DNA of 64,000 bases, taken from positions 1,488,001 to 1,552,000 of the forward strand of contig NZ_CP049256.1 in assembly GCF_011046485.1 (NCBI RefSeq), in the 5' to 3' direction. The position numbers and the translations under genes were made by a program. How positions within the stretch are numbered: position 1 is the first letter of the stretch; each line of letters opens with the position of its first letter. The DNA comes from Microbacterium sp. 4R-513 (lineage in GTDB: Bacteria > Actinomycetota > Actinomycetes > Actinomycetales > Microbacteriaceae). The notes under the pieces are model-generated. The model was not told where the DNA came from. It made no database searches and saw only the letters and a program-made list of their open reading frames with translations. Below, piece after piece: positions 212-31,227 of the stretch.

Positions 212-616
212 GTGATCCCCGATCGCATCATCGAGCAGGGAACGCTCACGACCGATGGGACGCGTACCTCTGTCGAGGTCCGACTCCCGTGGTACCGCGC
301 CCTTCCGGCCTCGTGCATCGCCGGCGCGAAACTCACCGTCGACGGCGTCGAGGCGCCCGCCGACTCGCTGCGCTGGGAGATGAACGGCAAGACCTTCACC
401 TTCGCCGAGCTCACGCCGAACACCGAGGAGTGGTGGTTCCCCACGGATTCCGCGGTCCTCTCCGGCGACATCGCGACCCCGGAGGACGGCGAGCACACCG
501 TCTCGGTCGAGCTCGTCCTCTACATCCCGTATATCGTCATCGGCGCCGACGAGGTGCTGCACATCGAGGAGAAGGACACCAAGACGATGTCCGCACGGAA
601 GGCGGTGGCGGCATGA
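212..616 (+). CDS. C-glycoside deglycosidase beta-subunit-like protein (DUF6379 family)
   Basis: This 134-aa protein is all-beta in character. Its N-terminal block VEVRLPWYRALP (residues 22-33) is shared with the protein at 3574-3990 and with the N-terminus of the fusion at 16794-18233. It belongs to the family known as the small beta subunit of C-glycoside deglycosidases, which pairs with a TIM-barrel alpha subunit to cleave the C-C bond of 3-keto C-glycosides. The GTG start is supported by AGGAG 6 nt upstream. The stop overlaps the next start (ATGA), so it is translationally coupled to an alpha-type subunit, as in known beta/alpha pairs. The substrate cannot be read from sequence. The family call rests on remembered motifs and gene order. 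Confidence 0.75.
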   Translation: MIPDRIIEQGTLTTDGTRTSVEVRLPWYRALPASCIAGAKLTVDGVEAPADSLRWEMNGKTFTFAELTPNTEEWWFPTDSAVLSGDIATPEDGEHTVSVELVLYIPYIVIGADEVLHIEEKDTKTMSARKAVAA

Positions 617-1719
617 CCGCGCTCGGCACGCCCATCCAGGGCGTCACGCTCTACAGCTTCACTCGCGCCTTCCACGGCCGCGAGTACGACCTGGAAGGGC
701 TCATCCGCAAGGCCGCGGCCGAGAACTTCGGTCCGGGCCTGGAGATCATCGGCTTCTCGAGCTTCCGCGGCTTCCCCGAGATCGACGACCAGTACGCCGG
801 CTGGTTCAAGGACCTGATCGCCGAGACGGGCCTCGTGACGACGTCCCTCGCGGTCAACGCCGACATCGGCATCCACCGCGACCGGCTGCTCACGCAGGAC
901 GAGCTCCTGGAGTACATGCGCCGCCAGATCGCCGCCGCGGCGAAGCTCGGCTTCCCGATCGCGCGCGTGCAGATCTCGATCACTCCCGACTCGATGGAGG
1001 CGCTCGCCCCGATCGCCGAGGAGTACGGCGTCACCCTCGCCCTCGAGGTGCACGCCGACCAGTACGCGTCGCACCCGCGCATCCTCGCCCTCCGCGACCG
1101 CTACGAGAAGGTGGGGTCGCCGTTCCTCGGCTTCACGATGGACTGGGGTGCGACCGTCTCGGGCTTCGCACCATCGCTCGTCGAGGCGTACCGGCGCCGA
1201 GGGGCGTCGGAGGAGCTGCTCGCGGCCGTCACCGGCCTGTGGGACGAGTTCTACCAGCAGGGGCCCCCCGCCGACCAGGCCGACCACGGCCAGCGTTTCG
1301 GCCGGTTCATCGGCCTCGCGGCGCAGTACGGTCGCCCCGACCTCGGGATCGACATGGGCATCAATGCGACCGGCCTGTTCGGGCCGGCGCGCGTCGACGA
1401 CTGGCTCGAGATCTTCCCGTGGATCAAGCACGTCCACGGCAAGTTCTTCGGCATCGACGACCAGCATGAGGAGCCCTCGGTCCCCGTGCGCGACCTCATC
1501 CGTCTGCTCGTCGAGAACGGCTACAACGGCGCGATCTCGAGCGAGTACGAGGGCTGGCACTGGAACTCCTGGCAGAGCCCCTTCGACATCATCCGCGACG
1601 AGCAGGCCGTGCAGCGTTCGGCTGCCGAGGCGGCCGGCTCCCACATGACGAGGGATGCCGCGACCGCCCGCACGCAGCTGGCCCAGTGGCTTCCCAGCAC
1701 GACAGGAGCAAAAGCATGA
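613..1719 (+). CDS. C-glycoside deglycosidase alpha-subunit-like TIM-barrel protein
   Basis: A 368-aa sugar phosphate isomerase/epimerase-type TIM barrel. The four metal ligands of the fold are visible: E145 (LALEVHA), D177 (FTMDW), H275 (KHVHGKF) and E311 (SSEYEG). The C-terminal block HVHGKFFGIDD...GAISSEYEGWHW is shared with 1716-2768 and with the C-terminal half of the fusion at 16794-18233. In C-glycoside deglycosidases this subunit carries the active-site metal and removes the aglycone from a 3-keto sugar. The start ATG overlaps the stop of the beta-type gene by 4 nt. I chose this ATG over an upstream in-frame start because the extension would lie inside the beta gene. A general isomerase role is the alternative. 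Confidence 0.72.
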   Translation: MTALGTPIQGVTLYSFTRAFHGREYDLEGLIRKAAAENFGPGLEIIGFSSFRGFPEIDDQYAGWFKDLIAETGLVTTSLAVNADIGIHRDRLLTQDELLEYMRRQIAAAAKLGFPIARVQISITPDSMEALAPIAEEYGVTLALEVHADQYASHPRILALRDRYEKVGSPFLGFTMDWGATVSGFAPSLVEAYRRRGASEELLAAVTGLWDEFYQQGPPADQADHGQRFGRFIGLAAQYGRPDLGIDMGINATGLFGPARVDDWLEIFPWIKHVHGKFFGIDDQHEEPSVPVRDLIRLLVENGYNGAISSEYEGWHWNSWQSPFDIIRDEQAVQRSAAEAAGSHMTRDAATARTQLAQWLPSTTGAKA

Positions 1720-2768
1720 CCACCGATAACGGAATCGCGGGTACGGGCATCAAGCTCGGCACGACCCTGTACTCGCTCACGAGCGAGTTCGCCGCCGGCC
1801 TGTACACGCCCGAGACCCTCATCGCCGCCGTCGCGGAGGAGGGGATCGGCCCGGGCGTCGAGTTCAACATCGCACAGCTGTTGCGCACGTACCCCGACGT
1901 CGACGACGAATTCGTCAAGCTGTGGTTCGATTCGCTCGAGAAGTACGGTCTCGAAGCGAGCGCGGTCGGCACGAACCTCGACATGGGGCGCCGCAAGGAT
2001 CGCGACATGACGCCCGACGAGGAGCACGACTTCCTCGCCCGTCAGCTGAAGACCGCGCACACGCTCGGCTTCAAGAAGGTCGTCATCCGGTCGCACGGCA
2101 AGGAGCTGCTGCGCAGCCTCCTGCCGCTCGCCGAGAAGTACGACCAGTACCTCGGCTACGAGATCCACGCGCCGTCCGGGCCGAACAACCCGGCCGTCGT
2201 GCAGATGCGCGAGATGTACGACGAGCTGCAGTCCGAGCGCCTCGGTTTCACCGCCGACTTCTCGTCGACCATGCACAGCCTGTCTCCGCTGCTGCTGGAC
2301 CAGCTCGAACTGATGGGCATGGATCCGAAGCACTTCGCCGTGATGGACGAGATCTGGCACGAGCCGATGCCTATGAACGAGCGGAACCAGAAGTTCGAGG
2401 ACTACCTGGTCGGCGAGGGCGTCGACCCGGTCGGCTTCGGGCCGCACACGCGCCTCGCGTTCAACATGCACGGACTCGTCCCGCCGGAGGAGTGGCTCGA
2501 CATCATGCCGCAGATCTTCCACGTGCACGCGAAGTTCTACGACATCGACGAGAACGGCGACGAGCCGGCGATGGACATCCCGCGCATCGTGCGGCAGTTC
2601 GTCCTGGGCGGCTACCAGGGGTACCTGTCGAGCGAGTGGGAGGGGCACGCCTTCGTCGACCTCGGCGTCGTCGACCCGATCGACGTCGTGAAGAAGCAGC
2701 ACGCGCTCATGCGCAAGGCCATCGAAGACACCGTCGCCGAGCAGTCGAAGGAGACCGCCAATGTCTGA
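1716..2768 (+). CDS. Second C-glycoside deglycosidase alpha-subunit-like TIM-barrel protein
   Basis: A 350-aa paralogue of the preceding gene. Metal ligands are at E149 (LGYEIHA), D181 (FTADF), H271 (FHVHAKF) and E307 (SSEWEGH). It starts at an ATG that overlaps the previous stop by 4 nt and has AGGAG 8 nt upstream; an in-frame ATG 30 nt earlier lacks this. It resembles the fusion protein at 16794-18233 more closely in its C-terminal block (HxKFxDID and LSSEWEGH) than its neighbour does. The beta-type gene at 3574 may be its partner, giving two alpha/beta pairs in one operon, or all four subunits may form one hetero-oligomer. Function is inferred from family and context. Confidence 0.7.
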   Translation: MTTDNGIAGTGIKLGTTLYSLTSEFAAGLYTPETLIAAVAEEGIGPGVEFNIAQLLRTYPDVDDEFVKLWFDSLEKYGLEASAVGTNLDMGRRKDRDMTPDEEHDFLARQLKTAHTLGFKKVVIRSHGKELLRSLLPLAEKYDQYLGYEIHAPSGPNNPAVVQMREMYDELQSERLGFTADFSSTMHSLSPLLLDQLELMGMDPKHFAVMDEIWHEPMPMNERNQKFEDYLVGEGVDPVGFGPHTRLAFNMHGLVPPEEWLDIMPQIFHVHAKFYDIDENGDEPAMDIPRIVRQFVLGGYQGYLSSEWEGHAFVDLGVVDPIDVVKKQHALMRKAIEDTVAEQSKETANV

Positions 2769-3564
2769 CGTTTCGACAAGCTCAACGACCGGTGTGGCCG
2801 ACATCTCGGTCGCGGAGCTCGCCGCCGAGCTCGCCGACCTCCGCGAGCAGCTCGCCGCCGCGCAGCGTCTGGCGCAGCGCGCCGAGGACCGCGGCCAGGT
2901 CGAGAACCTGTTCAACCGCTACATGTACCTGCACAACGCCTTCCAGGACGAGCAGATCATCCCGCTCTGGGTGAAGGAGGGCACCGAAGGCATCCGCGCC
3001 CGCTACACCAACGCCGGCCAGTACACGACGTGGGAGAGCGTGACGCGCTACCACCGCGGACGGCCGACGCCCGAGGGCAAGCTCATCCTGCACGCCACGA
3101 CGACGCCCGTCATCGAGGTCGCCGCCGACGGCGAGACCGCGAAGGGTGTCTGGCTCATGGCCGGAACCGAGTCGGGCCTCACCGACCCGGAGGTCGCAAA
3201 GGCTTTCCCGGACATGTACTCGCCTGAGGAGGTGCTCGGCAAGAAGGTCTGGGCGCACTGGGTGTGGTGCAAATACGCGATCGACTTCCTCAAGCAGGAC
3301 GGCGAGTGGAAGTTCTGGAAGTTCCGCTGCTACGAGCTGGCGCGCGCGCCGTTCGAGGAGAACTGGGTGAGCTTCGGGCTGAAGAACCAGGGCGCGTTCG
3401 ACCTCGACCTCATGTACTTCGGCGACGACGGGAAGCCCGTCTTCATGCCGCCCGCCGACGAACCCGTGCCGTCGAACAACCACCCGTACAGCCCCGAGAC
3501 GGTGCAGAAGCTCGAGCCGGCGCCGCCCGTGCCGCATGAGACCTTCACCGACACCTACGCCTGA
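2761..3564 (+). CDS. NTF2-like (SnoaL-type) protein of the deglycosidase operon
   Basis: A 267-aa protein. The first 45 or so residues are low-complexity and then a helix rich in Ala, Glu and Leu; the NTF2/SnoaL-type fold follows (about residues 45-210, with conserved Trp and Tyr and the segment WKFWKFRCYE), then a Pro-rich tail. NTF2-fold proteins act as small dehydratases, isomerases, hydratases or binding subunits. It overlaps the previous gene by 8 nt and lies between two deglycosidase subunit genes, so it may hydrate the enone product of C-C cleavage or be a structural partner. Both roles are inference. The codons for residues 3-10 are formed by a copy of the dispersed repeat found elsewhere in the window, which makes the exact N-terminus uncertain. 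Confidence 0.65.
   Translation: MSDVSTSSTTGVADISVAELAAELADLREQLAAAQRLAQRAEDRGQVENLFNRYMYLHNAFQDEQIIPLWVKEGTEGIRARYTNAGQYTTWESVTRYHRGRPTPEGKLILHATTTPVIEVAADGETAKGVWLMAGTESGLTDPEVAKAFPDMYSPEEVLGKKVWAHWVWCKYAIDFLKQDGEWKFWKFRCYELARAPFEENWVSFGLKNQGAFDLDLMYFGDDGKPVFMPPADEPVPSNNHPYSPETVQKLEPAPPVPHETFTDTYA
2772..2790 (-). repeat. Dispersed-repeat fragment inside a gene start
   Basis: TTCGACAAGCTCAACGACC matches the reverse complement of the CCCTGAGCTTGTCGAAGGG-type repeat at 16756, 31245 and 38086. It lies at codons 4-10 of the NTF2-like gene. In the other copies the element is intergenic. Confidence 0.6.
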
Positions 3565-3573
3565 GGAACAGCC

Positions 3574-3990
3574 ATGGCCACTCACAATTCCCTCTTCTCC
3601 GAGAAAGACGTCCGTCGCACCGACAACGGCATCGCCGTCTCGGTTCAGCTGCCGTGGTACCGGAGCCTCTGGCTGTCGGCGGTTGACGATGTGGCGGCAG
3701 CCGTCAACGGCGTCGAGATCCCCAAGGACTCGCTCCGCTTCGAGCTGCAGGGCAAGAGCTACCGCATCGAGGAGCTGCCCGAGCAGTCCGAGACGCTGTG
3801 GTTCGTCGCAGACAAGCCCGAGGTCGTCATCGACCTCGGTCGCACGCCGGAGCCGGGCGAGAAGCTGACCGTCGAAGTCGTCCTCACGATGCGCCTGCTC
3901 TACATGCAGATCATGCCGGGTGTCGACGGCGGCCCCGGCCGGTACGTCACCAACCGCGTGCCCGTCGAGCGCGAGGTCGTGCTGGCATGA
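3574..3990 (+). CDS. Second C-glycoside deglycosidase beta-subunit-like protein (DUF6379 family)
   Basis: A 138-aa paralogue of the protein at 212-616. It shares [14 protein letters not shown] (residues 22-35), a hydrophobic TLWFVAD strand and a C-terminal [17 protein letters not shown] block. A second small subunit in the same operon as two alpha-type barrels suggests two CGD enzymes or one mixed complex. The ATG has GAGGAAC about 5 nt upstream. Its stop overlaps the start of the Gfo/Idh gene (ATGA). The most likely partner is the alpha subunit at 1716, judged only by order. No catalytic residues are expected in this subunit; in the known enzymes it shapes the active site and stabilises the complex. 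Confidence 0.74.
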
Positions 3991-5183: not shown

Positions 5184-5237
5184 GCCGACGGAGCTCAGCG
5201 GATAGGTTTGACCCAACAACAAAGCAAAGGAGCTGCG

Positions 5238-6239
5238 ATGCCTCGTCCGATCACCCTCTTCACGGGCCAGTGGGCCGACCTCCCCTTCGAGGAGGTGGCG
5301 CGCCTCGCCGGCGAATGGGGCTATGACGGTCTCGAGATCGCCTGCTGGGGGGACCACCTCGACGTCTCGCGATGGGATGACGAGGCCTACGTGCAGTCCC
5401 GCAAGGACATCCTCGAGCGCAACGGTCTCAAGGTCTGGGCGATCTCGAACCACCTGACCGGTCAGGCCGTCTGCGACGACCCGATCGACCAGCGCCACCG
5501 CGACATCCTGTCCGATCGGGTGTGGGGCGACGGCGACGCGGAGGGCGTGCGTCAGCGTGCCGCGGAGGACATGAAGAACACCGCGCGGATCGCGGCGCGG
5601 CTCGGCGTCACGCAGGTCAACGGCTTCACCGGTTCGTCGATCTGGAAGGCCGTGGCGATGTTCCCGCCGGCAACCGACGAGTGGATCGACGCCGGGTACC
5701 AGGACTTCGCCGACCGCTGGAACCCGATCCTCGACGTGTTCGAGGAGGAGGGCGTTCGCTTCGGGCTCGAGGTGCACCCGTCCGAGATCGCGTACGACTA
5801 CTGGACCGCGAAGCGCACGCTCGAGGCGATCGGGCACCGCGAGTCGTTCGGCTTGAACTTCGACCCGTCGCACTTCATGTGGCAGCAGCTGGACCCGGTG
5901 GCCTTCGTGCTGGACTTCGCCGACCACATCTTCCACGTGCACGTGAAGGAGTCGATCACCAACCTCGACGGCCGAAACGGCGTGCTGGGCTCGCACCTCG
6001 CGTGGGCGAACCCGCGCCGCGGCTGGACGTTCGTCTCGACGGGCCACGGCGCCGTGCCGTGGGAGCCCCTCTTCCGCGCGCTCAATGCGATCGGCTACGA
6101 CGGCCCGACCTCGGTCGAGTGGGAGGACGCCGGCATGGATCGTCTCGACGGCGCTCCCGAGGCCCTCGCCTTCGTGCGCAAGCTCAACGCCATCACTCCG
6201 CCCGCGGCGGCATTCGACGCCGCCTTCTCTACGAAGTAG
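5238..6239 (+). CDS. Sugar phosphate isomerase/epimerase family TIM-barrel protein
   Basis: 333 aa, AP-endonuclease-2-like barrel. The metal ligands are E178 (GLEVHP), D209 (NFDPSH), H235 (FHVHVKE) and E294 (SVEWED). Unlike the CGD-type barrels it has the HVHVKES motif with a Lys-Glu pair, typical of keto-sugar epimerases and isomerases encoded beside Gfo/Idh genes. A role in processing 3-keto-glucose or its enol ether is likely but not proven. I chose the ATG at 5238 because AAAGGAG lies 5 nt upstream; an in-frame ATG 30 nt earlier has no such site. A hairpin follows the stop. Confidence 0.78.
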
Positions 6240-6296: not shown

Positions 6297-7283
6297 ATGA
6301 CGACACCGGTGATCGGCGCGCCCGAAAACGCCGCCAAGAAGGTCAAGTGGAGCTACATGGACCACTGGCGCAGCCACGGCCCCGCCGGGCCGTTCGACCA
6401 GTGGCAGTCCAGGCTGGCGATGACGCGGTTCCTGCGCCAGGTCGCGGCCGTCGGCTTCGAGGCGATCGACACCTTCGACTTCCGCTTCTGGCAGATCCTC
6501 GAGCAGTACGGGTCGGTGGCGAACTATCAGGAGTTCGTGCAGGAGCAGGGCCTCGAAAGGATCGTGAACACGTTCCACGGCGTCTACTACACGCCCGACC
6601 GCTATGCCCCGGAGGTGCCGGCGACGCATCCGACGATCCTCGAGGACTTCAAAGTCACGATGGACCGGTGGTCCGGCATCCAGCTCGACAACATCATCGT
6701 CATGCCGGGCTCCCGCTACTTCGACGAGGCCGGCGTCAGCGACGACGGGCTCAAGCACGCTGCCGACGTGTGGGGCAAGGTCGGCGAGATCACGCGGGAG
6801 TACGGTGTCAATCTGACGTGCCACCACGAGTTCTATGGCGGCATCCGCACCCGCGCGCAGATCGACACCTTCTACGAGTATGCGGACCCCGAGTTCGTGA
6901 AGTTCTTCGTCGACACCGCGCAGCACTGCATCGCCGACGTCGACCCCGTCGAGGTCTACGAAGCGCACCACGAGCGGGTGACGGGATTCCACTTCAAGGA
7001 CACCCGCACGAAGGACGTGAACGCGGACTATCGGCTGTGGCCGGATGCCGAGCTCTCGGCCGTGACGACCGAGAAGTGGTTCTACGAGATGGGTACCGCC
7101 GAAGGGCTCGTCGATTTCGAGGCCATGATGCGCTCCGTGCGCGATCACGGCTACACGGGCTGGATCAGCGTCGAGCACGACAAGGCCGACAAGCTCGGCG
7201 GTGACTACTCGGAGAGCACCGCGATCTCTCGCTGGTACGCGAAGAACGTGCTCGACGGCATCTACGCGGAAGGCACACGATGA
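6297..7283 (+). CDS. Sugar phosphate isomerase/epimerase family TIM-barrel protein
   Basis: 328 aa. Barrel metal ligands appear as E178 (TCHHEFYGG), D206 (FFVDTAQH), H232 (GFHFKDTR) and E293 (SVEHDK). The pattern FxxDTxH...FHFKDTR is typical of xylose-isomerase-like barrel proteins in inositol and keto-sugar pathways. It starts at an ATG with AGGA about 5 nt upstream and overlaps the next gene by 4 nt. With its two barrel-fold neighbours it probably carries the sugar fragment released by the deglycosidase to a common sugar; individual reactions cannot be assigned from sequence. Confidence 0.77.
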   Translation: MTTPVIGAPENAAKKVKWSYMDHWRSHGPAGPFDQWQSRLAMTRFLRQVAAVGFEAIDTFDFRFWQILEQYGSVANYQEFVQEQGLERIVNTFHGVYYTPDRYAPEVPATHPTILEDFKVTMDRWSGIQLDNIIVMPGSRYFDEAGVSDDGLKHAADVWGKVGEITREYGVNLTCHHEFYGGIRTRAQIDTFYEYADPEFVKFFVDTAQHCIADVDPVEVYEAHHERVTGFHFKDTRTKDVNADYRLWPDAELSAVTTEKWFYEMGTAEGLVDFEAMMRSVRDHGYTGWISVEHDKADKLGGDYSESTAISRWYAKNVLDGIYAEGTR

Positions 7284-8281
7284 GCGCTGTCCGATGGGCC
7301 TACGCCCTCAACCAGTGGGACACGAACATCGATGCGTTCGTCCGCCGACGCGATCACGAGCGCGCCTTCAAGACGATCTCGATCAGCGGCTTCAGCGCGG
7401 TCGAGCTCACCGCGGTGAGCTTCGGCCCGTGGGAGCCGTTCGGCAGCCCCGACGAGATCGAGAAGCTCTACGGCTCCCTCGACGGGCTGCGGGCCTTCCT
7501 CCGGGAGTGCGCGCTCGAGGGAGTGTCGAGCTACGTCTACGACCCGTTCGTCGGCTTCGAGGTCGAGATGGGGAGGGGTCCCGACCCGCTGGACCCCGGA
7601 TCGCTGGAGAGGATCGCGCAGACCGCGACCTGGTTCGCGACCGCCGTGCACCGCCTCGGCGGCGGCGCACTCGTCGTTCGCCCGGTCGGATCGGCCTGGC
7701 AGACCGGCCCGCTCACCGACGAGCAGATCGGCGTGCTCGCGCGTCTGTGGAACGAGGTCGGGCGCCGGATCGCGAAGGACGGCGTCAAACTCGGACTGCA
7801 CGTCGACTTCCTCTCCGCGCTCCGGCTTGACGGCGGCATCGACCGCCTGCTCGAAGCGACCGACCCGGACCTCGTCGGTCTCGCGCTGGACACCGCCGAG
7901 CTCGCCATCGCGGGCATCGACCCGGTCGAGCTCTTCCGCAAGCACGCGCCCCGCGTCGTGCACGTCCAACTGAAGAACGCCCGACACATCGTCGACGAAG
8001 AAGAGGCGCTCACTCCCCACGCCGAGCAGTTCATCCGGACCGAGGGCGGCCCGCGCCGGATCGAGCGCTGGTTCTTCGAGCCGACCGACGAGGGTGGGCT
8101 GATCGACTTCGAAGCGTTCGCGCAGGCCGTGGCCGACTCCGGATACTCAGGGTGGATCGTTGTCGAATCGGATCAGAGTCCCCGCCCGGCCGAGAGCGCG
8201 ATGGTCGCCGGCTGGTACGTGCAGAAGGTGTTGAGACCGATCGTCGAAGGCGGCGCGGCAGCGAGAACAGGAGCGGCGTGA
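7280..8281 (+). CDS. Sugar phosphate isomerase/epimerase family TIM-barrel protein with altered first metal ligand
   Basis: 333 aa. It has the C-terminal signature of the fold: D204 (LALDTAE), H228 (VVHVQLK) and E296 (VVESDQS). The position of the first Glu ligand is filled by His (LGLHVDF, H174), as in some IolE/IolI-type dehydratases and isomerases. It is translationally coupled to the upstream barrel gene (ATGA). Only one base separates its stop from the ThuA-like gene. An IolE-like dehydratase or an epimerase acting on a keto-sugar is plausible; the His substitution argues against the same chemistry as its two neighbours. Confidence 0.75.
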   Translation: MSAVRWAYALNQWDTNIDAFVRRRDHERAFKTISISGFSAVELTAVSFGPWEPFGSPDEIEKLYGSLDGLRAFLRECALEGVSSYVYDPFVGFEVEMGRGPDPLDPGSLERIAQTATWFATAVHRLGGGALVVRPVGSAWQTGPLTDEQIGVLARLWNEVGRRIAKDGVKLGLHVDFLSALRLDGGIDRLLEATDPDLVGLALDTAELAIAGIDPVELFRKHAPRVVHVQLKNARHIVDEEEALTPHAEQFIRTEGGPRRIERWFFEPTDEGGLIDFEAFAQAVADSGYSGWIVVESDQSPRPAESAMVAGWYVQKVLRPIVEGGAAARTGAA

Positions 8282-8282
8282 C

Positions 8283-9155
8283 ATGCCCGATGTGTTGAAT
8301 GTCCTGATCCTCTCGGGTCACATGACCCGCGAGCATGACAACGAGTTCCGCAGCTTCCGGCTGCACAGCCAGTGGATCACGACGCTGCTCGAAGACACCG
8401 GGCGCTTCAAGGTGCGCGTGGTCGAGGACCCGCGTGGCCTCGGCGCCGACATCATCGACAAGTACGACGTCCTCATCGTCGTGTTCGAGGGTCGCGACGG
8501 GTTCTTCGAGAAGGCCGTCGGATTCGGAGCCGAGACGGATGCCGCGATCCTGAAGTTCGTGCACGACGACGGCAAGGGCATCGTGTGGTTCCACGGCTCG
8601 GCCGCGCAGGAGGACCGGTGGGGCTACCCCGAGGAGTACAACGTCATGCGGGGCGCGAAGCTCAGCGCCTACGAGACCGGTCTTCGCCCGCGGCCGTGGG
8701 GCGAGGCGCAGCTCGACACGGTCGAGCCGCGGCATCCCATCACCGAGGGGATCAGCGCCCGCTGGACGGTGACCGGCGACGACATCCTCACGGGGGTCGA
8801 CCTCTACGAGGGTGCGCAGGTGCTGCTGACGACCTTCGACGATCTCGAGGCCTATGAGAAGGCGCCGGTGTGGCCCATGTCGCATTACCCGGTGGAGATC
8901 CCTGAGGGCGGCATCGCCGAGCTGAACGGCATGAACACCGACCAGCCCATCGCGTGGATCAACGAGTACGGCGAGGGGCGGTCGTTCACCATCACGATCG
9001 GCCACGACATCGACACGTTCCGTCGGATCGAGTTCATCCGGATGTTCCCGCGCGGCGTCGAGTGGGCCGCGACCGGCTCCGTGTCGCTGGAGGGACCCGA
9101 CCGCCGGGGCGAGCGCCGCTTCCTCCCGTGGCCGTACTACAACCACGAAGGATGA
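8283..9155 (+). CDS. ThuA-like family protein (trehalose-utilisation ThuA domain)
   Basis: 290 aa, a class-I glutamine-amidotransferase-like fold of the ThuA family. The start VLNVLILSGHMTREH (residues 4-18) and the conserved segment KGIVWFHGSA are visible. ThuA works with ThuB, a Gfo/Idh enzyme, in the 3-keto-disaccharide route of rhizobia. Here too a Gfo/Idh gene follows at once, so a 3-keto-glycoside role fits. The biochemical activity of ThuA proteins is not well settled. It belongs to the same transcription unit as 6297-10152. Confidence 0.75.
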   Translation: MPDVLNVLILSGHMTREHDNEFRSFRLHSQWITTLLEDTGRFKVRVVEDPRGLGADIIDKYDVLIVVFEGRDGFFEKAVGFGAETDAAILKFVHDDGKGIVWFHGSAAQEDRWGYPEEYNVMRGAKLSAYETGLRPRPWGEAQLDTVEPRHPITEGISARWTVTGDDILTGVDLYEGAQVLLTTFDDLEAYEKAPVWPMSHYPVEIPEGGIAELNGMNTDQPIAWINEYGEGRSFTITIGHDIDTFRRIEFIRMFPRGVEWAATGSVSLEGPDRRGERRFLPWPYYNHEG

Positions 9156-15472: not shown

Positions 15473-15495
15473 CCGTCCGACACTGATCGTGCCGG

Positions 15496-15520
15496 GGTGC
15501 CCGCGGGGGAGGCGGGCACC
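15496..15520 (+). terminator. Terminator-like hairpin after the binding-protein gene
   Basis: GGTGCCCGC (15496-15504) pairs perfectly with GCGGGCACC (15512-15520) across a 7-nt loop. The T content downstream is low (TCGGCTCCTT). Confidence 0.55.
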
Positions 15521-15551
15521 TCGGCTCCTTCCCGCGAGAGGACACACCGCC

Positions 15552-16742
15552 GTGACCACCGAAGAGACTTCGACCCCCCGCGCTCTGAGCGTCGCCATGA
15601 TCGGCTACGGCTTCATGGGCGCCGCGCATTCGCAGGGCTGGCGCGTCGCCCCGCGCTTCTTCGATCTGCCCCTGTCGCCGTCGATGGACGTCGTCGTGGG
15701 GCGGGATGCCGCGGCCGTCGCCGCCGCGGCCGAGAAGTGGGGCTGGCGCGAGACCGCGACCGACTGGCGCGAGGTCATCGCCCGTGACGACGTCGACGTC
15801 ATCGACATCGTCACGCCGGGCGACACGCACGCCGAGATCGCGATCGCCTCGCTCGAGGCCGGCAAGCACGTCCTGTGCGAGAAGCCCCTGGCCAACACGG
15901 TGGCCGAAGCCGAGGCGATGACGGATGCCGCGTCCCGCGCCGCTGCCCGCGGCGTGCGGTCGATGGTCGGCTTCACATACCGCCGGGTCCCCGCCGCCAC
16001 CTTCGCGCGCGACCTGGTCGCCGCGGGGCGGATCGGCGAGATCCGCCAGGTGCGGGCGGAGTACCTGCAGGACTGGCTGATGGACGCCGAGGCGCCGCTC
16101 ACGTGGCGCATGCAGAAGGAGCGCGCCGGTTCGGGCGCCCTCGGCGACATCGGGGCCCATGCGATCGACCTCACCGAATACATCACGGGGCAGCGGGTCG
16201 AGACCGTCTCGGGAATCCTCGAGACGATCGTGGCCGAGCGCCCGCTGCTCGGCGAAGGCGTGGGGCTGTCGGGCACGGCACGCGAGGAGCGGGGCGCCGT
16301 GACCGTCGACGACCTGGCGCTCTTCACGGGACGGCTCTCGTCAGGCGCTCTGGCGTCGTTCGAGGCCACCCGGTTCCGCACCGGCCGCAAGAACGCGCTC
16401 CGCATCGAGATCGCCGGGTCGCTCGGCGCCCTGTCGTTCGACCTCGAGCGCATGAACGAGCTCGGCTTCTACGACGCGACGGCGCCCGGGACGGAGCTCG
16501 GCTTCCGCCGCATCCTCGTGACCGAGCACGACCACCCGTACCTCGCGCCGTGGTGGCCGACGGGGCACATGCTCGGGTACGAGCACGGCTTCAGCCACCA
16601 GGTGGCGGACTTCGTCACGGCGATCGCCGAGGGCTCTCAGCCCGAGCCGTCGTTCGAGGACGGCCTGCACATCCAGCGCGTCCTCGCCGCGGTGGAACGC
16701 AGCTCCGACGACGGCAGTGCCTGGACCCCCACCGACAGCTGA
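15552..16742 (+). CDS. Gfo/Idh/MocA-family oxidoreductase, paralogue of 3987-5183
   Basis: 396 aa. It has the nucleotide-binding motif GYGFMG (residues 18-23), E110-K111-P112 in [12 protein letters not shown], and the same C-terminal block [14 protein letters not shown] as the enzyme at 3987. The two align along their whole length, so they are recent paralogues or parallel acquisitions. Start GTG with GAGAGGA about 9 nt upstream; a longer reading start 63 nt earlier would run through the hairpin. It lies between the importer and the fused deglycosidase, suggesting a second glycoside module with its own oxidoreductase. Confidence 0.85.
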   Translation: MTTEETSTPRALSVAMIGYGFMGAAHSQGWRVAPRFFDLPLSPSMDVVVGRDAAAVAAAAEKWGWRETATDWREVIARDDVDVIDIVTPGDTHAEIAIASLEAGKHVLCEKPLANTVAEAEAMTDAASRAAARGVRSMVGFTYRRVPAATFARDLVAAGRIGEIRQVRAEYLQDWLMDAEAPLTWRMQKERAGSGALGDIGAHAIDLTEYITGQRVETVSGILETIVAERPLLGEGVGLSGTAREERGAVTVDDLALFTGRLSSGALASFEATRFRTGRKNALRIEIAGSLGALSFDLERMNELGFYDATAPGTELGFRRILVTEHDHPYLAPWWPTGHMLGYEHGFSHQVADFVTAIAEGSQPEPSFEDGLHIQRVLAAVERSSDDGSAWTPTDS

Positions 16743-16793: not shown

Positions 16794-18233
16794 TCAGGCG
16801 ACGGTGACGGATGCCCCGGCCAGCGCCGTCCTGGCGAGGGCGAGGTGCGCGCGGGTCATCGTGGCGGAGTCGTCGTCGAGCCACTCGTGGCCGCCCCACT
16901 CGCTCGTCAGCGTGCCCGTGAAGCCGACGCGCTGCAGCGCCGTGCCGATGTCGGCGATGGGCCGCGAGACCCGGCCGTCGGCGTCGTCGAGGTCCCAGAA
17001 CTTGAGGTGCACCCCGGCGGTGAGCGGCAGAAGCGGCTCGATGTCGGCCACCGTCGATCGCCCGAAGCGGATCAGGAGGTTCATGAACAGCGTGTGCACG
17101 GCGGGCGGAACGTCTCCTCCGCGGAGCGCCGAGATGACGGCCGCGTGCGTCTCCGGCTCCCGCCAGGCGGTGTCCAACCGCTCGACGAGGGCGGGGGCCA
17201 CGCCGCCCTCGCGCAGCTCGTCGAGGTAGCTCGGCGGAAGCGACGGCATCAGCATGCTGATGTCGATGAGCACGCGGATGCGCGGGTCGTCGAGTGCGTG
17301 GAGCACCTCCAGGTTCTCGGCGATCGCCGGCACGTCGAGCGTCTGCTGTCCCTGGATCTCCTCGTACAGCACGACGTCGTGCTCGGCGAGGACGGGCTGG
17401 AGTCGCCGCAGCAGCTCCGGACCCGCCTGGCCGAACGGCACCCGCACACCTCGGGCTCCGAGGAGGGCCGCGGCGCGCAGCTGCGGCTCGAGGAACGCGA
17501 CGCGCTCGTCGACGCTCCGTCGCCGGGCCGGCAGCGCCCAGTCGTCGAGGCTCCCGCCGAGGATGCTCACGGTGCCGCCGACGGCTTCCATCCGCGAGCG
17601 GAAGGCATCCACCTCGCTCGCGGACGGCTCGGGGAACGAGCGCCACAGCTGACCGGGCTCGATCTCGATCGTCGATGAGACGCCGTCCTCGACGATGCCG
17701 AGGGCGAGGTCGGTGGCGGGCCGGACGGCGCGGATCACCTCGGGAGTCCAGTTGAAGGCGCTCGCGCCGAGGTCCCACGCGGAGGAGGGCGCTTCCTCGT
17801 CGATCCGCGGCGGTTCCTCCCGCTCCGCTCGGTCCACGACCGAGGCGGGTGCCTGCGGCGGCGCGTCGAGGGTGAGGGCGGCATCGGCGCGGAAGGGCAG
17901 CGTCAGCGGACCATCGGGGCCGGCCTGGAGGTACGGAACGACCAGCGTGAACGACACCGTCACGTCGTGGGCGCCGGGGCGCAGCATCCGTCTCCCTTCG
18001 AGCGTGAGCCGGTCCTGCAGGAACCACCAGCCGGACTCGAAGGCGAGCGCCGACGGCGCGACGCGGTGCCGTTCGAGCGCCACGACGATGTCGACGGGCT
18101 CGCCGTCGATCGACACGGCGAGGTCGGTCACGCTCGCGAGCGGAAGGGAGCGGATCCAGGGGAGGCTGACGCGGAGGGCGAAGCCGGACTCGGTCGACGA
18201 CAGCGCGTCGGGCAGCAGGATCGGGAGCGGCAC
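16794..18233 (-). CDS. Single-chain C-glycoside deglycosidase-like fusion (beta domain + alpha TIM barrel)
   Basis: 479 aa. Residues 1 to about 125 match the DUF6379 beta subunits (FALRVSLPWIRSLPLASV, SGWWF, DVTVSFTLVVPYLQ). A Pro/Glu-rich linker (about 125-152) leads to a TIM barrel (about 152-479) of the alpha type. All four metal ligands are kept: E292 (YEEIQ), D324 (LIDIS), H409 (GVHLKF) and E445 (TSEWGGH). The known enzymes use two separate chains, so this is a natural fusion in beta-alpha order, the same order as the split genes at 212-1719. GTG start with GGGGAG about 7 nt upstream. It is read toward the Gfo/Idh gene at 15552. Activity is inferred. Confidence 0.72.
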   Translation of the reverse strand: MPLPILLPDALSSTESGFALRVSLPWIRSLPLASVTDLAVSIDGEPVDIVVALERHRVAPSALAFESGWWFLQDRLTLEGRRMLRPGAHDVTVSFTLVVPYLQAGPDGPLTLPFRADAALTLDAPPQAPASVVDRAEREEPPRIDEEAPSSAWDLGASAFNWTPEVIRAVRPATDLALGIVEDGVSSTIEIEPGQLWRSFPEPSASEVDAFRSRMEAVGGTVSILGGSLDDWALPARRRSVDERVAFLEPQLRAAALLGARGVRVPFGQAGPELLRRLQPVLAEHDVVLYEEIQGQQTLDVPAIAENLEVLHALDDPRIRVLIDISMLMPSLPPSYLDELREGGVAPALVERLDTAWREPETHAAVISALRGGDVPPAVHTLFMNLLIRFGRSTVADIEPLLPLTAGVHLKFWDLDDADGRVSRPIADIGTALQRVGFTGTLTSEWGGHEWLDDDSATMTRAHLALARTALAGASVTVA

Positions 18234-18343
18234 GGGCTACTCCCCGCGGAGGCGGACGGATGCGGACATGGGGCACACTTCCTCGTGTCTCGGAGCTTGA
18301 GACAGGAAGCTACACGCTTTTGTCGAAAAGCGGAAGAAGTGTT

Positions 18344-19612
18344 TCAGGCGGCCACGGCGAAGATGCCCTCGACGGTCGGGCGACCGTCCGCGAACCACCG
18401 CGGGAAGGTCGCGTCGAAGAGCTGCTCCCGCACCATCTCGGCGCCGCCGCGCAGCGGCTCCCGCACGTCGTTCACGGACTGGGCGATCGTGAGGTCGCGC
18501 GTCGCCAGGGGGAGCGACAGTTCGTACACGCGGTGCCGCACCTCGGCCAGGAAGATCTCGCCGGCGGCGGGGACGGCCCCGCCCACGACGATCGTGCTCG
18601 GATTGAACATGTTGACGAGGGCGGCGATCGACTCGCCCATGACCCGCGCGGACCGCTGCACGAGCGCGATCGCGACGGCGTCTCCGTCCTCGGCGGCCAT
18701 CGAGATCCGCTCCGGCGTGATGGTCTCGCCCTCCGCGGCAGCGCGCGCGAGGTATCCGGTCGCCCCGTCCGCGATCGCCTGCTCGGCGTCGCGGACGAGT
18801 GCCCACCCGCCGGCGACGGCCTCGAGGCATCCGATCTTCCCGCATCGGCACGGCACATCCGAGTCGCGGACGCGCACGTGTCCGATGTCGCCCGCGGCGC
18901 CGTTCGCGCCTCGGTGCAGGCGCCCCTGCGAGAGGAGTCCCGCGCCGATGCCCGTGCCGATCTTGCAGTAGATGAGGTCGGCGTGCTCGTCGCGCCGGCG
19001 CGCGCGCTCGTTGAGGGCGAGGAGGTTGACGTCGTTGTCGACCCAGACGGGCGCGCTGTAGCGCTGCTCGAATTTGCGCCGGACGTCGAAGCCGTTCCAC
19101 CCCGGCATGATCGGCGGCGCGACGGGGCGGCCGGTCAGGAAGTCGACGGGGCCGGGCACGCCCACCGCGACGCCCCAGACGGGCACATCGGGGGTGCGCT
19201 CGAGCAGCTCGTCGAGCATCGCCATCGCCGTGTCGAGGGTCTCCGCCGGCCCGCGCGAGATGTCCCATGCGCGGTGCGTCTGGTCGATGATGTCGCCCTC
19301 GAGCAGCGCGACGCCCACGTGGATGTGCAGGGCTCCCAGGGCGCAGACGACGATGCGGCCCCGCTCGCTGCGGAAGCGGAGAGTGCGGGGCGCGCGGCCG
19401 CCGGAGGAGGGACCGAACTCGCCGTCCTCGAGGAAGCCCATGTCGATCGCCTGGTCGACGCGCTGCGTCACGACGCCGCGGCCGAGGCCCGTCACGCGGC
19501 CGATCTCGGGACGCGTGGATGCCTCGTGGGTGCGCACCATGTTGACGATGCGCAGCAGGCTCGTCACTTCGTCGGTCTGGGCGCCGAAGCGCAGTGTGGA
19601 CTCCTTGGCCAT
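18344..19612 (-). CDS. ROK-family transcriptional regulator
   Basis: 422 aa from the ATG at 19612 (MAKESTLRFG). An N-terminal winged HTH (about residues 10-75, TRPEIGRVTGLGRGVVTQRVD) precedes a ROK domain with CRCGKIGCLE near residue 253 and VDNDVN. It is likely a repressor for the divergent Gfo/Idh gene at 19720 and perhaps for the fused deglycosidase downstream on its own strand. An in-frame start at 19660 would add 16 residues but would run through the palindrome at 19635. No RBS is seen at either start. It is clearly distinct from the ROK protein at 10331. Confidence 0.82.
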   Translation of the reverse strand: MAKESTLRFGAQTDEVTSLLRIVNMVRTHEASTRPEIGRVTGLGRGVVTQRVDQAIDMGFLEDGEFGPSSGGRAPRTLRFRSERGRIVVCALGALHIHVGVALLEGDIIDQTHRAWDISRGPAETLDTAMAMLDELLERTPDVPVWGVAVGVPGPVDFLTGRPVAPPIMPGWNGFDVRRKFEQRYSAPVWVDNDVNLLALNERARRRDEHADLIYCKIGTGIGAGLLSQGRLHRGANGAAGDIGHVRVRDSDVPCRCGKIGCLEAVAGGWALVRDAEQAIADGATGYLARAAAEGETITPERISMAAEDGDAVAIALVQRSARVMGESIAALVNMFNPSTIVVGGAVPAAGEIFLAEVRHRVYELSLPLATRDLTIAQSVNDVREPLRGGAEMVREQLFDATFPRWFADGRPTVEGIFAVAA

Positions 19613-19634
19613 AGCAGATTCTGACACAAGCTCG

Positions 19635-19704
19635 ATGAACCTGTGTTCATTTGGGCACATCTATCGTCACAGCGATGAAAACTTATGTACTCTTTCCGCA
19701 TAAG
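19635..19704. promoter_or_regulatory. Two inverted repeats in a divergent promoter region
   Basis: ATGAAC-CTGT-GTTCAT (19635-19650) is a perfect palindrome. CTTATG-N11-CATAAG (19682-19704) is a second one, in an AT-richer stretch. Both lie between the divergent ROK and Gfo/Idh genes and are plausible operators for the ROK protein. Confidence 0.4.
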
Positions 19705-19719
19705 CGAGGGAGGGCGAAG

Positions 19720-20751
19720 ATGCCTCACGGAGTGGGCGTGATGGGGGCGGGGCCGGGTGTTGCGGCGCTCCACCTGCCCACCGTCGCGCGTCTCGCAGAC
19801 GACTTCCGAGTCGTCCACGTGACGGATGCCGGGAGCGGCCGAGCCGCTTCGCTTGCAGCTCGCACGGGTGCGCGCTCGTCGGCCGGCATCGAGGAGCTGC
19901 TCGCCGATCCGGCTGTCGAGGTCGTCGCGATCTGCAGTCCGCCGGCCGAGCACGACGAGCAGATCCTGGCGAGCGTCGCGGCGGGCAAGCGCGCCATCCT
20001 GTGCGAGAAGCCGATCGCGACGACCATCGCCGGCGCCGAGGGGGCGATCGACGCATGTCGCCGCGCCGGCGTCGCCCTCGTCGTCGGGACGAACCACTAC
20101 TACGACCCCGCGTGGGGGAGGGCCCGGCACCACCTCTCGACCTCCGGCGGGCCGGTCGTGTCCATCTCGGTGACCCTCGCCCTGCCGCCCAACGGCCGGT
20201 ACCACGACGTCGTGACGGAGGCCTTCGAACCCTCGCCGGGACGGCCGCCGGCAGACCTCACGAACCCGGTGATCGCGGCCGGCGTCGTGCGTGCACTCCT
20301 GACGGGCCTCGCCATCCACGACATCCCGCTCGTCCGCGACCTCGCCCCCCAATTCGAGCGAGTCGTCTTCGCCCGGGCGCTGGCACCCGTGGGCTACGCG
20401 GTGGGGTACATCGCGAGCGGCGTGCCCGTGCAGCTCACGACCGTCATGCGTCCCGACGGCGCCGACGCGCTGTGGCGGCTGACCGTCACGACCGATCGCG
20501 ATCGGCTGGACGTCACCTTCCCGCCGGCCTTCGTCCATGCGGGGAGTGCCGCCGTGCGGCTCCGCGCCGTCGACGGCCGCGACACGAACTATCCGCGCGA
20601 AGAGTCCGACGGGTACGTCGCGGAATGGCGGGCGCTCGCCGAGCTGCTCGAGAGCGGGGAGCCGGTCGAGTACGAGGAGCTGCTCGACGACGTCCGTTAC
20701 GCCCTGCGGCTCGCCGATGAGGCGTCGCGACTCGTGGAGGCGTCGGCATGA
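19720..20751 (+). CDS. Gfo/Idh/MocA-family oxidoreductase
   Basis: 343 aa from the ATG at 19720, which has GAGGGAGGG about 6 nt upstream; an in-frame start at 19651 lies in the operator region. It has the nucleotide motif GAGPGVA (residues 9-15), AILCEKPIATT, and a substrate domain with the less common NHYYDPAWG. It is divergent from the ROK gene and overlaps the next gene by 4 nt. It is not close to the other three Gfo/Idh proteins, so a different substrate is likely. Confidence 0.82.
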   Translation: MPHGVGVMGAGPGVAALHLPTVARLADDFRVVHVTDAGSGRAASLAARTGARSSAGIEELLADPAVEVVAICSPPAEHDEQILASVAAGKRAILCEKPIATTIAGAEGAIDACRRAGVALVVGTNHYYDPAWGRARHHLSTSGGPVVSISVTLALPPNGRYHDVVTEAFEPSPGRPPADLTNPVIAAGVVRALLTGLAIHDIPLVRDLAPQFERVVFARALAPVGYAVGYIASGVPVQLTTVMRPDGADALWRLTVTTDRDRLDVTFPPAFVHAGSAAVRLRAVDGRDTNYPREESDGYVAEWRALAELLESGEPVEYEELLDDVRYALRLADEASRLVEASA

Positions 20752-29631: not shown

Positions 29632-31227
29632 ATGTCGCACATCCCCACCGTCGCCATCGTCGGAAGCGGACCCATCGGGTCGGCCTACGCCCGCACGATC
29701 CTCGAGAACGACCCCGACGCGCGCGTCGTGATGTTCGAGGCCGGTCCGCAGCTCACCGCGATCCCGGGCGAGAGCGTCCGCAACATCGCCGACCCTGAGG
29801 AGAAGGCCCGCGCGCGTGAGATGTCGCAGGGTCCTCAGTCCGGCGCCTATCGCGAGACCCTCGGCATCCCGGCGGGGGCCGTGGTCGAGGGGATGTTCAC
29901 CGCCCGCCAGGGCACGCACCTGCTCGACTTCGGGGGTGAGGGCTCGGCGCACGCGCCGACCTTCCCGGCCGTCGCGGCCGCGACCAACGTCGGAGGACAG
30001 GGCGCGCACTGGACGTGCGCGATCCCGCGCCCGGCCTTCAGCGAGAAGGTCGACTTCATCGACGACGAGGAGTGGGACGAACTCATCACGACCGCCGAGG
30101 GCCTGCTGCACGCGCAGAGCGCGGCGTTCGCGGACTCGCCGATCGGAGCGGCGATCCGCTCGATCCTCGACGACGAGTTCGGCGCCGAGCTGCCCCCGGG
30201 CTACGGCGTCGGCACCCTGCCGGTGGCCGGCGACCCGCAGCCCGACGGATCGATGGTGTGGGCCGGTGCGAACACGGTCCTCGGTCCGCTCATCGAGGAG
30301 GGCACCCCCGAGTCCGCCCGCTTCGAGCTGCGGGACCTCACGCTCGTGCGGCGGATCGAGCACGACGGCGGACGGGTCACGGGCGTCACGATCGAGGACC
30401 TGCGGACGAAGGAGGTCTCGTTCTTCCCGGCCGATGCCGTGGTCGTCGCCGCGGACGCCTTCCGGTCTCCGCAGCTGCTCTGGGCCTCCGGCATCCGTCC
30501 CCGCGCCCTGGGACGCTACCTCACGGAGCACCACGTCGTCATCACGACGGTCGCCCTCGACGAGGAGCGCATGGGGGCGCTGATCTCGCAGGAGGAGTTC
30601 GAGACGGAGCTCGCCCGCCGCGCGGTCAACGCCGCCGACCCGGTCGCCGCGGTGAACCGCATCCCGTTCTCGGAGCCCCAGCACCCCTTGTCGCTCCAGG
30701 TCATGTACGCCGAGAACCCGCCGTTCCAGCTCGACCCCTCGCACCCCGCTGCGGGCAACCGCTGGGGCTACGTGAACATGGGCTACGGCGTGCGCAAGCA
30801 CCCGCGCGTCGAGGACGGCGTCACGTTCGACGACGACGAGCTCGACTACCGCGGCTTCCCGAACATGACGATCGAGTACGCGCTGACGGATGCCGAGCAG
30901 CCCGAGCTCGACGAGGCCCACGCGCGCGTGCGCCGTGCCGGCGCCGCGCTCGGCACGTTCGTCGCCGAGCCGAGGCTGCTGCCGAACGGCTCGAGCCTGC
31001 ACTACATGGGCACGATGCGCATGGGCCCGGCCGACGACGGCACGTCGGTGGCCGACCCGTGGTCGCACGTGTGGGGCTTCGACAACCTCGTCGTCGGCGG
31101 CAACGCCCTCATCCCGACCGCGAACACGATGAACCCGACCCTCATGAGCGTCGCCATCGCGGTCCGCGGTGCTCGGCGCCTCGCAGAGGAGCTGTCCGCC
31201 GCACCGGCAGAGCAGGTCGTTCGATGA
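29632..31227 (+). CDS. GMC oxidoreductase, pyranose-oxidase / C-glycoside 3-oxidase-like
   Basis: 531 aa. The N-terminal FAD motif is GSGPIGSA (residues 11-18). The segment NVGGQGAHWTCAIPRP places H126 where pyranose 2-oxidase carries covalently bound FAD (its GGxxTHWTC motif). The C-terminal catalytic pair is H457 (LHYMGT) and N501 (TMNPT), spaced as in that family. Bacterial members related to CarA oxidise the glucose C3 hydroxyl of C-glycosides, making the 3-keto substrate required by C-glycoside deglycosidases. That is the missing first step for the CGD genes in this island. A plain pyranose oxidase or dehydrogenase role is possible. ATG start with GAAGAGG about 8 nt upstream. Confidence 0.8.
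   Translation: MSHIPTVAIVGSGPIGSAYARTILENDPDARVVMFEAGPQLTAIPGESVRNIADPEEKARAREMSQGPQSGAYRETLGIPAGAVVEGMFTARQGTHLLDFGGEGSAHAPTFPAVAAATNVGGQGAHWTCAIPRPAFSEKVDFIDDEEWDELITTAEGLLHAQSAAFADSPIGAAIRSILDDEFGAELPPGYGVGTLPVAGDPQPDGSMVWAGANTVLGPLIEEGTPESARFELRDLTLVRRIEHDGGRVTGVTIEDLRTKEVSFFPADAVVVAADAFRSPQLLWASGIRPRALGRYLTEHHVVITTVALDEERMGALISQEEFETELARRAVNAADPVAAVNRIPFSEPQHPLSLQVMYAENPPFQLDPSHPAAGNRWGYVNMGYGVRKHPRVEDGVTFDDDELDYRGFPNMTIEYALTDAEQPELDEAHARVRRAGAALGTFVAEPRLLPNGSSLHYMGTMRMGPADDGTSVADPWSHVWGFDNLVVGGNALIPTANTMNPTLMSVAIAVRGARRLAEELSAAPAEQVVR

Follow-up and report, generated by a model that had tools for sequence, protein, structure and literature searches.

C-glycoside cleavage has been studied for gut metabolism, drug activation and, in reverse, C-glycoside synthesis. 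The C-glycoside deglycosidases (CGDs) are treated as heteromeric in a 2025 review of heteromeric enzymes (PMC12141560). In AgCGD2, the metal is held by Glu147, Asp179, His269, Lys271 and Glu305, with His149 as the base and Glu307 as its partner (Mori et al., PMC8563793). Replacement of the base His by Ala left 10.4% of the activity in PuCGD and 1.8% in MiCGD (H147A), and replacement of the partner Glu by Ala left 49.8% and 1.9%, respectively (PMC8563793). The AtOGE mutant H134A was inactive (Bitter et al., PMC10628242). In the beta subunit of PuCGE, Tyr39beta was needed for C-C cleavage, and its change to Phe cost approximately 12000-fold on C-glycosides, whereas activity towards the O-glycoside 3-keto-phlorizin stayed at 59% of the wild-type level (PMC10628242). 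A single-chain enzyme, the Microbacterium testaceum C-glucosyl deglycosidase of 433-435 residues (PDB 8QRZ/8UN2), was released in April 2025.

We analysed a stretch of 64,000 nucleotides from Microbacterium sp. 4R-513 (contig NZ_CP049256.1, positions 1,488,001 to 1,552,000), hereafter the window. The ORF at 16794..18233 (minus strand, 479 aa) was confirmed as real, and its reading in an earlier note as a beta-alpha fusion of CGD-type subunits was upheld: one polypeptide carries, in this order, a beta-sandwich (residues ~1-125) and a CGD-type TIM barrel (~151-479). In a profile search, the beta domain scored 20.3 bits against CGDB, under the Pfam cut-off of 27.6 bits. Despite this score, PDB beta chains and fold place it with the CGDB beta-sandwiches (sequence match to 8qvc_B, E 6e-4; Foldseek fold match of the predicted model to 7dnm_B at 1.9 A), and the N-terminal part is thus of the CGD beta type, as had been proposed. 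The best sequence match of the alpha half was AgCGD2 (E 1e-25), which also gave the highest structural Z for the ORF model (31.9). The whole model reached a pTM of 0.88, and its confidence was lowest, at ~53, in blocks 131-150 of the linker. The top Foldseek match of the whole model was 8QRZ/8UN2, but the whole-chain fit was poor (17.9 A, TM 0.50/0.55), so that a beta domain closing the alpha active site as in solved CGDs is no more than a candidate arrangement. NCBIfam assigned no family to the ORF protein. The database protein for this ORF (P0012, 336 aa; window 16794-17804) begins at an ATC codon, residue 144, so that the beta half is dropped.

The ORF is a real fusion of CGD-family domains and is not the first fused CGD. 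The earlier note knew of no described fusion, a claim overtaken by 8QRZ/8UN2, which rules out a first-ever CGD fusion here, and by proteins of ~490 aa that are named 'C-glycoside deglycosidase beta subunit domain-containing protein' in databases. Our literature search, conducted mostly outside subscription journals, yielded no paper dealing with fused CGDs or with the clade described below, and a paper on 8QRZ may exist. CGDB domains occur at five places in the genome, a single contig of 3.91 Mb: the two split betas of the window, the ORF and two more fused ORFs, F1 and F2, which stand in tandem 12-15 kb upstream of the window. F1 aligned end to end with 8QRZ (806 bits). Both halves of F2, representative of the ~490-aa type, had AgCGD2 as their nearest match (7dnm_A, 434 bits; 7dnm_B, 109 bits), and the base His, the Glu and each of the five metal residues were present in 120/120 F2 proteins (the best 120 of 917 matches, F2 included). 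With complete residues and AgCGD2-like halves, F2, outside the window, is by its sequence this genome's better candidate for a single-chain CGD whose active site is complete; its predicted model was poor (pLDDT 69.9, pTM 0.66; 43 very similar sequences). F2 and F1 each belong to a large family of fused proteins (917 and 1220 matches, respectively, 120 listed per set). F1 proteins carry Gln at the metal-ligand His (14/14; also in the 8QRZ sequence) and keep the base His and the Glu.

We then compared the residues of the ORF with those of the characterised enzymes (Table 1). The metal-ligand set Glu/Asp/His/Lys/Glu is complete: the four ligands listed in the earlier note (E292, D324, H409 and E445) are kept, and the fifth, Lys411, is kept too. 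The general base His (149 in AgCGD2, 143 in PuCGD) is replaced by Gln294, its partner Glu (307 in AgCGD2, 301 in PuCGD) by Gly447, and the leaving-group-activating Tyr39beta by Ile27. For the last position, Tyr39 of DgpB was taken as the Tyr before Arg40 in SYYRG, and Ile27 was placed via the alignment of the D. aerius beta chain. Alignments also showed changes on the aglycone side (Tyr17 to Phe160, Ser124 to Gln269), and the true substrate may therefore be something other than a flavonoid C-glycoside. The earlier name 'C-glycoside deglycosidase' is doubtful for this ORF, because the residues tied by mutagenesis to cleavage are replaced throughout the sampled clade, which we call QG after Gln294/Gly447. 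Since the ORF and its close relatives are without the known cleavage residues, it is probably not a CGD by mechanism and probably serves a different step of the same C-glycoside pathway.

Table 1. Features of the fused ORF, its surroundings in the window and the two other fused ORFs of the genome (window coordinates unless otherwise given).
Feature	Position	Strand	Remarks
Fused beta-alpha ORF of the QG clade	16794..18233	minus	479 aa, GTG start
Beta domain, residues 1-125, CGDB-type beta-sandwich	17859..18233	minus	CGDB, 8qvc_B and 7dnm_B matches
Linker, residues 126-150	17784..17858	minus	least confident part of model
Alpha domain, residues 151-479, CGD-type TIM barrel	16797..17783	minus	
Glu292, metal ligand (Glu147 of AgCGD2)	17358..17360	minus	by alignment
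Asp324, metal ligand (Asp179 of AgCGD2)	17262..17264	minus	by alignment
His409, metal ligand (His269 of AgCGD2)	17007..17009	minus	by alignment
Lys411, metal ligand (Lys271 of AgCGD2)	17001..17003	minus	by alignment
Glu445, metal ligand (Glu305 of AgCGD2)	16899..16901	minus	by alignment
Gln294, at position of base His149 of AgCGD2	17352..17354	minus	by alignment
Gly447, at position of Glu307 (partner of base, AgCGD2)	16893..16895	minus	by alignment
Ile27, at position of PuCGE Tyr39beta	18153..18155	minus	by numbering and alignment
ROK-family regulator, directly upstream of fused ORF	18344..19660	minus	
Gfo/Idh-type oxidoreductase, divergent from ROK gene	19651..20751	plus	
Gfo/Idh-type oxidoreductase, convergent neighbour of fused ORF	15489..16742	plus	
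Split CGD beta 1	212..616	plus	CGDB 62.3 bits
ORF holding split CGD alpha 1	289..1719	plus	base His and Glu kept
Split CGD alpha 2	1686..2768	plus	base His and Glu kept
SnoaL-like gene	2761-3564		between CGD alpha 2 and beta 2
Split CGD beta 2	3574..3990	plus	199 bits to AgCGD2 beta
Three further isomerase-like barrels	5208-6239, 6297-7283, 7280-8281		
F1, fused beta-alpha CGD, 433 aa	L003:132-1433 (own genome C1 ~1473053-1474354)		8QRZ homologue
F2, fused beta-alpha CGD, 493 aa	L003:1456-2937 (own genome C1 ~1474377-1475858)		complete active site

The replacements extend across the clade as sampled. In an alignment of 118 fused proteins (117 remaining after a length filter from the 120 listed of 659 matches), the metal residues E, D, H, K and E and Gly447 were present in 118/118, Gln at position 294 in 117/118 (one Gly) and Ile27 in 117/118 (one gap) among the matches listed. 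In the survey of loci from species genomes, where genes of the window's own genome may be counted in more than one locus, the pattern EDHKE/QG was found in 68 of 70 QG alpha rows, 44 of them split and 24 fused (the window's own among the latter), and the pattern EDHKE/HE in 82 canonical alpha rows. The remaining two QG rows were frame-broken copies in which neither His nor Glu was seen at the two sites, and six further rows under the QG score line were partial pieces, several of them QG gene fragments. A cleaner alignment, restricted to alphas of at least 270 aa, showed Q/G in 67/67 QG rows and H/E in 59/59 and 36/36 canonical and 14/14 F1 rows. On the beta side, Ile occupied the Tyr39 position in 70/70 QG betas scoring >90 bits; the other betas had Tyr (71, plus 23 holding IPWYR on inspection), apart from one with Arg and three without the region. 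Fused and split QG members share these replacements, which are therefore not tied to fusion.

We tentatively regard QG as a metal-dependent CGD paralogue that would take keto-C-glycosides as substrates but not cleave them in the known way, perhaps as a 2-keto/3-keto isomerase or an epimerase, and give this reading somewhat less than an even chance. A live enzyme is suggested by the invariant metal residues and by conservation at the barrel mouth. QG also retains a conserved beta domain, the part that forms the lining of the aglycone pocket in CGDs, suggesting a substrate with a bulky group still attached; the QG enzyme would bind a keto-glycoside that retains its aglycone. Without His149, Glu307 and Tyr39, the published elimination could not run as described, and, more tentatively, the simplest remaining chemistry would be proton transfer beside the ketone, leading to isomerisation or epimerisation via an enediolate at the metal, with the metal ligands Glu292 and Glu445 serving as bases. 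A two-Glu base mechanism is used by related TIM-barrel keto-sugar epimerases. The fold relatives of the ORF model include YcjR (6wn6) and tagatose/psicose 3-epimerases, a likeness that does not discriminate, because it is common to the whole superfamily, canonical CGDs included. As a hypothetical role, the enzyme might turn 2-keto-C-glycosides back into the cleavable 3-keto form. 3-Keto-C-glycosides isomerise spontaneously in vitro to the 2-keto form, near quantitatively for nothofagin, in a step judged by the authors to need no specific catalytic help and to be effectively irreversible under their conditions (PMC13273386), so a rescue isomerase would depend on the pull of the lyase.

The intact metal site and the kept beta domain would also suit a true 3-keto-glycoside lyase, acting on C- or O-glycosides with another base (Glu192, Glu291 or a metal-bound hydroxide) and a leaving group that needs no tyrosine. 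Glu190, Glu192, Glu291 and Glu292 were each present in 118/118 fused proteins (among the matches listed), and Glu291 was QG-specific in the cleaner alignment (67/67, versus Tyr, Leu or Pro in the other groups). PuCGD retains 10.4% of its activity without the His and 49.8% without the Glu, so some elimination could survive these losses, and the Phe variant of PuCGE Tyr39beta retains 59% on 3-keto-phlorizin. However, AtOGE, itself an O-glycoside eliminase, is inactive as H134A, MiCGD H147A falls to 1.8%, and the genome is already equipped with two split CGDs of canonical type as well as the fused F1 and F2. We consider a lyase unlikely, though worth keeping in view.

The neighbourhood of the QG genes was recurrent. 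By gene families resting on heuristic gene calling, a ROK gene was found in 61/70 loci (L006-L075), at a distance of at most 250 nt from the QG genes in 54, and a Gfo/Idh gene in 51/70, within 2 kb in 48; dioxygenase genes were present in 34/70 and GMC oxidase genes in 28/70, the latter at 3.4-7.3 kb. The closeness of the ROK gene, together with the lost cleavage residues, could suit a non-catalytic relative, for instance a sensor that binds sugar, or a protein without activity of its own that partners the ROK regulator or a canonical CGD. A pseudoenzyme, however, has little reason to keep five metal-ligand residues in 118/118 proteins (among the matches listed), and we regard this explanation as very improbable. 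The Gfo/Idh enzyme bears on another alternative, a hydratase that would convert the CGD product, 2-hydroxy-3-keto-glucal, into 3-keto-glucose by adding water: the pathway includes such a hydration step, carried out in A. tumefaciens by AtHYD, a second isomerase-like barrel, and 48/70 loci have, at a distance of up to 2 kb, this enzyme that could carry out a reduction of the product. The product is, however, a small free sugar that gives no reason for a conserved aglycone-lining beta domain, and any of the three other isomerase-like barrels in the window (5208-6239, 6297-7283 and 7280-8281) could be the hydratase, which makes a QG hydratase quite unlikely in our view. The isomerase or epimerase reading accommodates the conserved beta domain and remains the one we prefer.

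The window also holds a sugar-type ABC transporter and a ring-cleaving-type dioxygenase gene, and GMC oxidase C-terminal domains were found at 1487671-1487994, immediately ahead of the window, and inside it at ~30841-31161. Of the split CGDs, alpha 1 proper seems to begin at ~613, overlapping the stop of beta 1, and the second pair has an alpha-beta order, with the SnoaL-like gene lying between alpha 2 and beta 2. The stretch that separates the fused gene from the ROK gene contains a palindrome, CTTTTGTCGAAAAG (window 18317-18330). It was considered as a ROK operator and rejected, as it is not conserved; a loose form of the pattern occurred upstream in 9/70 loci, the window's included.

We next assessed the distribution of QG across genomes. 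CGDB matches were found in 44 of 198 Microbacterium genomes sampled, and all 41 genomes with a QG protein were among these 44, with 0/154 among the others, a co-occurrence that counts related genomes and not independent events. An uninterrupted full-length QG match was present in 14 of the 41 genomes (the window's own included), and three more had one internal TGA. In a phylum-wide draw, just 5 of 396 genomes, the window's own among them, had a CGDB match. Pseudarthrobacter siccitolerans also has a divergent QG pair (L072); its glycoside 3-oxidase cluster is described with two CGD pairs, and the QG pair is unmentioned in the part of that article covered (PMC10646112). Taken in full, the proposal would make QG a dedicated enzyme of C-glycoside catabolism: a CGD that lost its cleavage residues, kept its metal site and aglycone-binding beta domain, and became a keto-C-glycoside isomerase or epimerase rescuing the dead-end 2-keto-C-glycoside beside the true CGDs, in almost all sampled Microbacterium genomes that encode such CGDs. 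We think this complete version rather unlikely. Two actinobacterial genomes (L078 and L079) carried a CGDB-like N-terminal domain scoring below the cut-off (26.2 and 22.7 bits) in open reading frames 524 and 514 codons long, whose second domain looks by eye like the uroporphyrinogen-decarboxylase type; the QG alpha model had no match in these frames. The beta fold may thus pair with another kind of barrel.

The architecture of the QG genes was variable. Among 70 of 71 loci (L005-L075; the fragmented copy L075 was left out), 24 were fused, 32 were tandem with beta before alpha, and 14, mainly from Arthrobacter and Pseudarthrobacter, were divergent; L044, L071 and L074, with broken alpha frames, were counted as tandem and are absent from the tree. 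Of the 32 tandem loci, 20 showed a 4-nt overlap between an alpha start codon and the end of the beta gene, and the linkers of the fused proteins were 2 to 38 residues long. Many split QG betas (e.g. L037:7506-7931 of A. globiformis, paired with 7992-9017) finish in an SVSRDVA-like tail just before the stop. In a quick tree of 95 alphas, which included only 7 rows each from C1, C2, F1 and F2 and carried a long-branch warning, the QG clade had an SH-aLRT of 100 and a long stem. Parsimony gave 8 changes between fused and split states within QG, 3 of them forced by strongly supported branches, and 10 overall. A single fused clade within QG was rejected (AU p 0.0123), as was a clade uniting all 40 fused rows (AU p 5.6e-6), both on this quick tree with its long branches; the groups were defined by architecture before the tree, and the choice to test them came after seeing it. 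QG and F1 stood far apart in the alpha tree, and the fused forms did not trace to a common descent in it. Arthrobacter (divergent) and Subtercola (tandem) rows branched near the QG base. These results suggest that fused and split QG forms interchanged several times; in view of the rows near the base, the direction may have been from split to fused. The suggestion that the fusion arose from a tandem operon pair thus holds in general terms, with 32/70 loci tandem beta-then-alpha, but not as a single event, given the repeated changes of state. Microbacterium-like QG clusters that fell among Microbacterium rows in the tree were also carried by two contigs with other titles, L018 (Planococcus) and L028 (Stenotrophomonas maltophilia), which are probably contaminated or mis-binned assemblies.

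The object of interest is thus the QG clade rather than the fusion itself. A clade with the CGD scaffold and metal residues, without the three cleavage residues and standing beside true CGDs in the sampled genus, points to a missing step next to the CGD reaction. Its members are natural contrasts for testing the roles of the His, the Glu and the Tyr, and switching among divergent, tandem and fused forms is so frequent that it invites the question of when an obligate two-chain enzyme becomes a fusion, and for what reason. They also call for caution, as domain hits alone are insufficient for naming such proteins deglycosidases.

Among known systems, YcjR (3-keto-D-glucoside 4-epimerase, PDB 6WN6) and the D-tagatose/D-psicose 3-epimerases share, in the fold comparison, the barrel of the ORF at low identity (9-20%); to our knowledge, they are without a CGD-type beta domain. 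AtOGE and AtHYD of Agrobacterium tumefaciens are, like the ORF, isomerase-like barrels with the same pathway logic, whereas AtOGE is without a beta subunit, has His for the first metal Glu and carries the base His134. PuCGD/PuCGE (DgpB-DgpC, PDB 7BVR/7EXZ) has the same alpha and beta folds and type of metal site as the ORF, but is a heterooctamer with His143, Glu301 and Tyr39beta. AgCGD2 (AgCarB2-C2, PDB 7DNM/7DNN), the heterodimeric CGD of Arthrobacter globiformis, has the same metal-ligand residues as the ORF; unlike the ORF, it is a two-chain enzyme in which His149, Glu307 and the conserved beta Tyr are present, and it cleaves 3-keto C8-glycosides. The M. testaceum enzyme (8QRZ/8UN2) is, like the ORF, a single chain with the same two domain types, beta then alpha, but belongs to another lineage, keeping the base His and the Glu with Gln at the metal His.
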